In this document: in pieces, positions 21,874 to 26,440 of the stretch | Numbering within the stretch: the first letter of the stretch is position 1 | How the letters are laid out: each line of letters begins with the position of its first letter | Assembly: GCF_004421185.1 (NCBI RefSeq) | Contig: NZ_LXQB01000034.1 | Location: 1 to 44,475 of the forward strand | Source of the DNA: Methylacidiphilum sp. Yel | GTDB taxonomy: Bacteria > Verrucomicrobiota > Verrucomicrobiia > Methylacidiphilales > Methylacidiphilaceae | Length of the DNA: 44,475 bases | Direction of reading: 5' to 3' | Made by a program: the position numbers and the translations under genes | Notes under the pieces: generated by a model | Database searches by the model: none | Told to the model about the DNA's origin: nothing | Seen by the model: only the letters and a program-made list of their open reading frames with translations

Positions 21874-24800
21874 TTAAGCTGCTTCACCCCCATTCAAGGC
21901 TTTCGAAGAGGTTGGCTTCATAGGTAAGCCAAAGGAATCCGATCGCTGGCCGATGGTGACTTCAAGACACAACCCTTGCATTTCTTTGACAAGCACATTA
22001 AAAGATTCTGGTGTTGTGGTCTCTAAGTAATTTTCCCCTTTAACAATGCTCTCATAAATTCTTGTTCGACCTTGCACGTCGTCTGATTTAACCGTTAACA
22101 ACTCCTGCAAGACATAAGCCGCGCCATAGGCTTCCATTGCCCAAACTTCCATTTCCCCAAACCGTTGGCCACCATACTGCGCTTTGCCTCCCAAAGGCTG
22201 TTGCGTTACTAGCGAATAAGGTCCAACAGCACGGGCATGGATTTTATCAGCAACCATATGATTGAGTTTCATCATGTAGATCACTCCCACAACCACTCTC
22301 TGATTAAACCGTTCTCCCGTTCGACCGTCATAAAGGATGCTTTTCCCATCTTCATCCATACCCGCCTTCACCAAAAATTCCCGTATTTTCTCTTCTTTAA
22401 CCCCATCAAAGACAGGAGTGGCCACATTGAACCCCAATTTCTTTGCAGCTATCCCAAGATGGGTTTCAAGCACTTGCCCTACATTCATTCGAGAAGGAAC
22501 TCCCAGCGGATTAAGAACAATATCCACAGGGGTACCATCGGGCAGATAGGGCATATCTTCTACGGGAACAATTTTTGAAACAACTCCCTTATTCCCATGC
22601 CTTCCAGCCATTTTGTCTCCCACCGAAAGCTTTCTTTTGTTAGCAATAAATACTTTTACCTGCTTGATGATCCCTGGTTCTGTATCTTCCCCACTTTCTA
22701 TTTGATCAAGTTCTAACTCTCTATCGTTTCTTAGTTGTTCAAATTTGGCTTCAAAATTGCCAATAATATCAAAGATCTTGGAACGGATGGGGCTTGGATC
22801 AATCTCAATCTTATCGTAGGCTTGAGCCATTTTCCTTAAAAGCACCTTCGTGATTTTCCGGTTAGCAGGGATAATAATTTCTCCCGTCTCCACATTCACC
22901 ACATCCAGTGGAATTTTCTCATTCAGTAAAATATTGGAAAGAGCCTGCGTCAGTTCTTCTCGAAGCTCTTCTTCTTTTTTATCATATCTTTCTTCGATCT
23001 CTTTGATTTTCTGTTTGGCTTCCGAAGCACTTATCTTTTCTTTTCTCACCCGAGCGGTCCCTGAACTGACTCGTACATCCATTACAATGCCATAAGTGCC
23101 CGAAGGGACCCTCAAAGAAGAATCTTTGACATCAGCAGCTTTTTCCCCAAAAATGGCTCTTAAAAGCCTTTCTTCCGGTGCCAGTTCGGTTTCGCTTTTA
23201 GGTGTTATTTTCCCTACGAGGATATCCCCAGGTTTAACTTCCGCACCAACTCGAATGATTCCATCAGGCCCAAGGTTTTTTAGTGCCTCATCTCCTACGT
23301 TAGGAATATCTCTAGTGATTTCTTCTGGTCCCAATTTCGTATCCCGAGCCACAATTTCAAATTCATCGATATAAATACTTGTAAAAAGGTCTTCTTTAAC
23401 AATCCTTTCTGAAACAATGATAGCATCCTCAAAATTATACCCATTCCAAGGCATAAAGGCCACAAGCAGATTTCTTCCCAGAGCAAGTTCTCCATTCTGC
23501 GTACTTGGACCATCGGCTAGAATATCTCCTTTTTTAACCACCTGTCCTTTTTTGACAATGGGCTTTTGATTGATACAAGTCCCAGCATTGGATCGCATGA
23601 ACTTATTGAGCTTATATATGCCAACTTCCTTTTCAGAACCTTGTTTGATTTTCTTTTTCTTAAGATCGGCAAGAGATCCAGTCGGCGTCACAATGATTTC
23701 ATTTCCCGTAACTGATGCTACCACGCCATCTGTTTCACTAACCACTACAGCTTGAATGTCCCTAGCGACTCTTTCCTCAATACCTGTACCCACAATCGGT
23801 GCTTCAGGTTGGATGAGCGGAACAGCCTGCCGTTGCATATTAGAACCCATGAGTGCCCGATTCGCATCATCATGTTCAAGAAATGGAATGAGCCCTGCAG
23901 CTATGGAAACTATCTGCTTGGGCGAGACATCCATGTATTCTACTTTTTCTCGTTCCACTTCCATAAACTCTCTGCGAAAGCGGACAGCAACCCGCTGATC
24001 TAATATCATTCCATCATCAGAAACCGCCGTATTGGCCATGGCTATCACGTAATTTTCTTCCTGATCCGCTGTAAGATAAACGATTTCATTGGTTACCTTG
24101 CCATTAACAACCTTACGATAAGGCGTTTCCAAAATGCCGTATTCATTAAAGCGGCTGTAAGAAGCCATTGTGGCAATAAGCCCAATATTGGGTCCTTCTG
24201 GAGTTTCGATAGGACAAATCCTTCCATAATGGGAAGGGTGCACATCTCTGACCTCGAAACCGGCTCGTTCTCTTGACAAGCCCCCTGGACCTAAAGCCGA
24301 AAGCCTTCTCTTATGAGTCAGCTCTGAAAGAGGATTAATTTGATCCATCAACTGAGAAAGCTGGCTGCGAGCAAAAAAATCTCTTATTGTAGCCGATAAC
24401 GCCTTAGGATTAATCAATTTTTGAGGAGTCATTCCTTCCGTATTGACATCAAAAAGCGTCATCCGTTCCTTGACGAGTCTTTCGGTTCGAGCTAGTCCCA
24501 TTCGACACTGATTGGCTACAAGCTCACCAACCGCACGAACGCGCCTGCTCCCTAAATGATCAATATCATCCGTAATCCCTTCCCCTTTTTTAAGTTTTAT
24601 TAAATAGCGGGTAGCAGCCACAAGATCTTCCCAAGTCAATATGCGAATCTCTGGGTCTACTTGGATGTTCAATTTTTGATTGAGTTTATACCTCCCAACC
24701 CTTCCTAAATCATATCTTTTTGGATCCAATAGAAGCCTTTTCAAAAGGAGCTTTGCATTCGATTCAGTTGGCGGGTCTCCAGGCCGCAGCCTTCTATATA

Positions 24801-25743
24801 TTTCTTTTAAAGCCTCAATTGGATCTTTCGTTGGATCTTTCTTTATACACTTAATCAGCGTATCATCATATTGTACATCGACAACCTGAATCGTCTTAAT
24901 GCCCAAATCTAACAGCTGCCGAACCACACTTCTTGTTACTGGCTCATAAGCCCTAGCCAAAACCACCTCTGGGTTATTGGGATCTCGCACTTCGTTAACG
25001 AGCACTTTGGTGGCAACTTTTTCTTCTTCAATACCCTCAGAAAGATTGATTTCCTCAACTGTGTAAAAAAGTCTGATAATTTCTTCATCTCCACCTGTCC
25101 CCAAGGGAGATGAGCTCCCAGACAATGCAGCGGCAAGGGCTCGTAACAAGGTCGTAATAAGAAATTTTCTTCTCTTTTTCCTTCTGTCCAAGTAGACATA
25201 AAGCAGATCGTTGGAATCAAAGGCAACTTCAAGCCAACTGCCTCTGTCAGGAATGATCCGAAAGGAATAAAGCGTCTTTCCGTTACTGTGAAAAGAAGAT
25301 TCAAAACAGATCCCAGGAGATCTATGCAATTGGTTGACTATTACCCTTTCAGCCCCATTAATGATGAAACTTCCCTGAGGAGTCATCATCGGTAACTCAC
25401 CCATATAAACCTTCTCTTCCTTTACCCCTTCCTCATCTTTAAGTCGAAACGTAACATGCAAAGGGGCTGCATAAGTTTTTCCATCCCGCAGACAATCAAT
25501 GGGACTAAATTTAGGGTCGCCAATTTCGTAATTGACATACTCCAGCCTGACTTTCCCATCGTAACTTTCTATCGGAAAAACTTCCTGAAAAACTCCATGC
25601 AACCCCTCAGGTTTCCTATCCTGTGGAGCTACCGAGAGTTGGAGAAAATCGGCATAAGATTTTGTTTGATGTTCAATAAGATTAGGCAAACTCAATCCTT
25701 CCCGAATTTTTCCAAAATTGATTCTCTGCATTTTCTGATTCAT
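21874..25743 (-). CDS. rpoB: DNA-directed RNA polymerase subunit beta
   Basis: 1289 residues. The rifampicin-binding region at about 457-520 reads [21 protein letters not shown] and then [20 protein letters not shown], the sensitive-type consensus except Leu in place of the usual Phe in SQFMD. Downstream are [58 protein letters not shown] and the C-terminal [21 protein letters not shown], all beta-subunit hallmarks. It is separated from rpoC by 22 nt and from rplL by 27 nt, so the three are co-transcribed. The short first residues [13 protein letters not shown] leave two possible ATGs, four codons apart. Confidence 0.98.
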
Positions 25744-26160: not shown

Positions 26161-26177
26161 TGTATCCTCCTTTCATT

Positions 26178-26237
26178 CCACCTAGAGACAGGCACCCGCT
26201 CTGTCAATTCTCCTTGGAGGGCTCCAAGGCTAGGTGG
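26178..26237 (-). promoter_or_regulatory. three-way-junction RNA element upstream of rplL
   Basis: On the rplL mRNA strand three perfect helices nest into one junction. The outer helix P1 has 8 bp (26230-26237 with 26178-26185; CCACCTAG/CTAGGTGG). Hairpin P2 is CCTTGGAG/CTCCAAGG (26222-26229 with 26212-26219; 7-8 bp, tight loop). Hairpin P3 is GACAG/CTGTC (26201-26205 with 26187-26191) with a 9-nt loop. Single-stranded joints are only 0-6 nt. P1 ends 7 nt before the rplL Shine-Dalgarno, and no U-run follows, so it is not a terminator. A protein- or ribosome-binding leader controlling L12 synthesis is the simplest reading. I do not recognise it as a named family. Confidence 0.65.
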
Positions 26238-26361
26238 ACATTTCGCCCTCTTCTTTTCATGTTCCTTTGTCCCTATTTTTCTTGAATATTTTCAAAAAAA
26301 ATACTTTACAAAGGATAAACTTTTCTGACATATAAAAGCCAAAACTTTACTCCGTTTTTCT

Positions 26362-26394
26362 CTTACTTGGAAGAGGTGGCTTTCCCCAGGTAAG
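26362..26394 (-). promoter_or_regulatory. stem-loop downstream of rplJ
   Basis: In the rplJ-rplL gap a second fold is visible: CTTAC (26390-26394 read on the minus strand) pairs with GTAAG (26362-26366), and a GGAA/TTCC inner helix extends it with small internal loops. It begins about 47 nt after the rplJ stop. No U-tract follows, so it is more likely an RNA processing, stability or attenuation structure than an intrinsic terminator. The DNA between it and the three-way junction is A/T-rich and could hold an internal promoter, but I found no convincing -35/-10 pair. Confidence 0.35.
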
Positions 26395-26440
26395 CAAATT
26401 ACTTTCCATTCTCTCAATCAAATAAGACAATGCACGGTTT

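Follow-up and report, generated by a model that had tools for sequence, protein, structure and literature searches.

L12 alone among the ribosomal proteins occurs in multiple copies, and to our knowledge the control of its ratio to L10 and to rRNA is only partly understood. The locus described here raises the question of whether such control might be exercised by an RNA lying inside the operon, directly ahead of the L12 gene. It was found in a contig of Methylacidiphilum sp. Yel (NZ_LXQB01000034.1; hereafter the window, i.e. the whole 44,475-nucleotide stretch that was analysed), whose minus strand carries the end of the rplK-rplA-rplJ-rplL-rpoB-rpoC cluster. In this cluster rplJ (L10; 26441..26977, supported by tblastn) precedes rplL (L7/L12; 25771..26160, supported by relatives), which is presumed to be the regulated gene and is followed after a 27-nt gap by rpoB (21874..25743), all on the minus strand. 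A preceding sequence-only reading had drawn attention to a 280-bp gap between rplJ and rplL, and we recovered it with exactly this extent (26161-26440). The same reading had held that merely 13 nt precede rplJ and that the usual position of an L10 leader is thus empty; the spacing between rplA and rplJ is indeed 13 nt, and we found no L10 leader of the usual kind before rplJ.

The rplJ-rplL gap as a whole is unusually structured in the window (z -5.4). Within it, the proposed 60-nt segment with three helices (26178-26237, minus strand) was reproduced as a three-way junction with a folding energy in isolation of -29.4 kcal/mol (in a comparison with 200 dinucleotide shuffles, z = -3.8 and one shuffle equally stable). 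Its 3' end lies 17 nt before the rplL ATG and 6 nt from the Shine-Dalgarno sequence AGGAGG (26166..26171, minus strand). Read along the mRNA strand from 26237 to 26178, the element has the sequence CCACCUAG CCUUGGA GCCC UCCAAGG AGAAUU GACAGAGC GGGU GCCUGUC U CUAGGUGG. The outer helix P1 consists of 8 bp formed by its 5' strand CCACCUAG (26230..26237) and its 3' strand CUAGGUGG (26178..26185), and encloses two hairpins: P2 (26212..26229), with 7 bp and the loop GCCC (26219-26222), and P3 (26187..26205), with 5+2 bp around a single bulged A (26200) and the loop GGGU (26194-26197). The joints of the junction measure 0, 6 and 1 nt, the second being J23, AGAAUU (26206..26211), and the third J31 (position 26186), which is also a single nucleotide in the 55-column template described below.

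To investigate the conservation of this structure, we located the same site by means of rplL in 188 genomes of the class and read the upstream DNA of about 120 of them. Nearly all the genomes read have a three-way junction between rplJ and rplL, and its geometry is near-constant: P2 and P3 are each 18-nt hairpins (7 bp and a 4-nt loop), J23 measures 6 nt, J31 1 nt and P1 about 6 bp. The element comes in three flavours: 1) type A, in the order to which the window belongs and a few other families, with CUAG in P1 and the loops GCCC/GGGU; 2) type B, in most other families, with UCGUCG/CGACGA in P1 and the loops GGCU/AGCU; 3) type C, in families f15, f19, f42 and others, with CUAG in P1, a short P2, in many cases closed by UACG, and UUAAAC/U as J23. 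In type C, 93% of the P1 cells and 100% of the P2 cells are paired, and the register of P3 is less certain. In two members of a further family (L132 and L162, family f45) the element is apparently reduced to two helices, with P3 gone and P1, P2 and the UUAAA kept.

Covariation was assessed on an ungapped alignment of 55 columns and 59 distinct elements, using a phylogeny-aware null which, like that of R-scape, places the observed substitutions anew on the rplJ tree. Thirteen of the 20 base pairs covary at E<=0.05, and no column pair outside the structure does so; all 20 pairs show changes on both sides. The alignment holds 78 G.U cells and 15 A.C cells, an excess which indicates that the strand that folds is that of the mRNA. 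Since the offset of the template alignment was picked by pairing, it is pertinent that MAFFT, given the sequences alone, arrived at the same columns, which removes most of this worry; in the MAFFT alignment 94.2% of the cells are paired, as against 59% when shuffled and at most 45% with the register slid. RNAalifold predicted the same structure unprompted, and 50 further distinct copies from outside the model set pair at 92%. The 60-nt element is a real, class-wide structured RNA tied to rplL.

We then used the covariance model built from the element (R1) to establish its distribution. In the window's genome R1 recovers one copy, at 26180-26235 (E 1.9e-14). Across the class, matches were obtained in 123 of the 188 genomes, a lower bound because R1 misses type C, and 117 matches have E<1e-5. 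For 100 of these 117 a listed rplL coordinate was available for comparison: 99 are located on the same strand, 13-76 nt (median 22) upstream of rplL; the one exception, from a genome in which rplL was matched twice, is close to the end of a contig and is presumed to result from an assembly break. No genome searched with R1 has a second strong copy. These observations bear on the possibility that the structure arose by chance, codes for protein or belongs to a mobile repeat. In several genomes short open frames do run across it, but the covariation, the single copy per genome and the fixed place speak against all three, and we assign this explanation a negligible probability. A short reading frame was rejected in particular as the frame is not kept and the helices change by compensated pairs, and a dispersed repeat, which the sequence-only reading had named as an outcome that would count against it, was likewise rejected, the segment being present a single time in the genome. 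The other such outcome, helices that neither covary nor persist in close relatives, is contradicted by the results above.

In a phylum-wide sample all 37 strong R1 matches fall within the window's class, and the element is absent from 20 rplJ-rplL gaps read from other classes of Verrucomicrobiota. When 80 loci were fetched from named genomes by their rplL protein alone, 68 contained the element, including one labelled Akkermansia muciniphila; the loci from Poribacteria, Atribacterota and Sphingomonadales among the 80 are without it. Two contigs placed in Proteobacteria, labelled Blastochloris (L190) and Proteobacteria (L253), carry a verrucomicrobial rplL together with the element (58-65 bits), and are probably mislabelled genome bins. 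Losses were observed in one genome of the window's own family (G012), in one with a gap of 25 nt (G176) and in two small genomes (G027 and G035).

The remainder of the gap shows several features of its own. The second stem-loop that had been reported after rplJ (26362-26394, minus strand) is present in the window sequence but is not conserved in the genus, its stem being weakened in G002 and broken in G004, the two closest genomes, and absent from G003 and G001; it is a local feature outside the element. A switch in which this stem-loop would alternate with P1 or the Shine-Dalgarno sequence was rejected because the pairing partners are not conserved in the genus. An intrinsic terminator was rejected, since the mRNA strand of the gap shows nothing terminator-like, and a search of the gap for a sigma-70 promoter found none. 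An AT-rich block at 26294-26319 (minus strand), UUUAUCCUUUGUAAAG.AUUUUUUU, is near-invariant throughout the genus (all five genomes), against diverging flanks; it has no sigma-70 promoter match, and may be a different type of rplL promoter. In several type B genomes a separate small hairpin lies upstream of the element (at L036, L038, L040, L056, L058, L067, L070, L072, L082 and L090), with the loop NNGAAGCC (e.g. GCGUUAGAAGCCGCGC), which resembles the loop of helix 43 of 23S rRNA (GGCUUAGAAGCAGCC).

Is the element a known RNA? Neither this region of the window nor some 40 related loci matched any Rfam 15 family at gathering or relaxed thresholds, so that a known Rfam family was rejected as an identity for the element. 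The L10 leader (RF00557) has no match there at an E value of 10 or below; none of the 112 class genomes searched gives a score above its cut-off, in a search of limited sensitivity that passes just 3 of 14 control genomes. A survey of 20 ribosomal leaders (PMC7247131) names no leader that is located before rplL or occurs in Verrucomicrobia. The earlier claim that no named element has this layout thus stands with respect to Rfam, but has to be qualified by a microbiome screen (PMC8040213), which lists the candidate RNAs HMP2_2105 from Treponema and HMP2_254 from Collinsella. These are likewise located directly upstream of the L7/L12 gene; they stem from other phyla and from an automated screen. 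The S15 leaders of Bacillus and Thermus resemble it in being three-way-junction leaders of a ribosomal protein near the start codon, but they concern a different gene and protein, and their junction imitates 16S rRNA (PMC10931766). With the L10 leader the element would share the operon, a cis-acting mode of action and the likely protein, whereas the former is a K-turn hairpin before rplJ and the latter a three-way junction before rplL. The element, which has borne no name so far, almost certainly serves the control of L12, and is most likely an L12-specific ribosomal-protein leader that forms a new family in an unusual position within the operon. It shows two attributes of such leaders, a structure backed by covariation and a consistent place upstream of a ribosomal-protein gene.

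The complex L10(L12)4 is a known autoregulator of this operon; the features that it binds, in both 23S rRNA and rplJ leaders, are a K-turn and an unpaired UAA (PMC4538822, PMC10931766). By analogy with this binding, L10-L12 is the most likely candidate for the natural ligand of the element. P1 of the window is an unbroken 8-bp helix, and no K-turn was recognised by eye in other members. The two central adenines of J23 do not vary among 109 copies; the base before them is U, giving UAA, in 66 of the 109, and the window has GAA.

Examination of the two hairpin loops revealed that four positions of the P2 loop can pair in antiparallel fashion with four positions of the P3 loop, in the registers 14-41, 15-40, 16-39 and 17-38, which in the window corresponds to a candidate kissing of 26219-26222 with 26194-26197 (26194..26222, minus strand). 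The pair 16-39 is C-G in 109 of 109 copies, and 15-40 is either G-C or C-G, complementary throughout, and switches state three times on the rplJ tree. In the first set 96% of the loop-loop cells are paired, against at most 65% in other registers. As an exception, L107 and L113 (genus g33) have the P3 loop GAUC, which forms no proper kiss with the P2 loop. Judged from these alignments, a kiss of the P2 and P3 loops that includes a compensatory swap is likely; it falls short of proof because the independent events are few and the pairing is broken in a few members.

This arrangement invites comparison with the GTPase-associated centre of 23S rRNA, the 58-nt site of L10 and L11, with which the element shares its size, three helices, short outer joints, an A-rich J23 and two hairpins meeting at their loops. 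Its topology, a three-way junction with joints of 0, 5-6 and 1 nt and an A-rich J23, agrees with that of the centre. However, the helix and loop sequences differ, and R1 gave no significant match on six 23S loci. The likeness resides in the topology and in the UUAAA found in the joint (L147). As this joint order (0, ~6, 1) and an A-rich, UUAAA-like joint are common to the site of L11, the element could alternatively be a cis-regulatory RNA for another ligand, such as L11 or L1, whose genes both belong to this cluster, or for a small molecule. Its strong copies lie before rplL and none lie elsewhere in the searched genomes, and a match to 23S at the level of the model is lacking; we hence regard a ligand of this kind as improbable.

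Based on the above, we propose, as a reading that we consider somewhat probable, that the element is a cis-acting leader of L12 within the operon, which is bound and stabilised by free L10-L12 and in which the two hairpins kiss. When the stalk protein exceeds 23S rRNA, free L10-L12, with L10 as the RNA-binding partner, would bind and stabilise the junction, the two hairpins lying side by side and held by the loop-loop kiss, and the A-rich joint forming part of the recognition face. In the window P1 is 17 nt from the ATG, within the space covered by the 30S subunit, so that a stabilised junction could block entry of the latter at the nearby Shine-Dalgarno sequence, and less L12 would be made. 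The multi-copy L12 might thereby be matched to the number of ribosomes without an L10 leader. The distance to the ATG grows to 53-76 nt in some members, where it is too great for simple occlusion to be the whole story. Against the proposal we also count the losses noted above, the failure of R1 to match 23S, the K-turn that inspection by eye did not recognise and the UAA that is not universal.

A different function is suggested by the starts of rplL itself: among 126 class starts read, about 55% have no Shine-Dalgarno sequence, and these genes start after an A-rich stretch that follows the element. Since this concerns around half of the rplL genes, a single blocking mechanism may not suit all of them. 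Together with the need for several copies of L12 per ribosome, it would fit a structure that raises L12 output without a protein ligand, as a 5' stabiliser, a processing site or a translation enhancer. Nevertheless, a stabiliser has no need of an invariant AA in the joint, a fixed 18/6/18/1 geometry and conserved loops, all of which point to specific recognition, and we deem a role of this type unlikely. A more far-reaching form of the L10-L12 leader proposal, in which the class controls L12 alone by a kissing-loop junction that mimics 23S rRNA at the base of the stalk, senses free L10-L12 and has replaced the L10 leader, is conceivable, and we advance it tentatively.

The element extends far beyond the window, across one large class of Verrucomicrobiota, a group of organisms for which we found hardly any described ribosomal leaders (one match is labelled Akkermansia muciniphila). 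It adds a compact three-way junction, probably with kissing loops, to the known RNA architectures, and, as a class-wide RNA placed solely before rplL, it offers a directly testable handle on the control of the L12 ratio.
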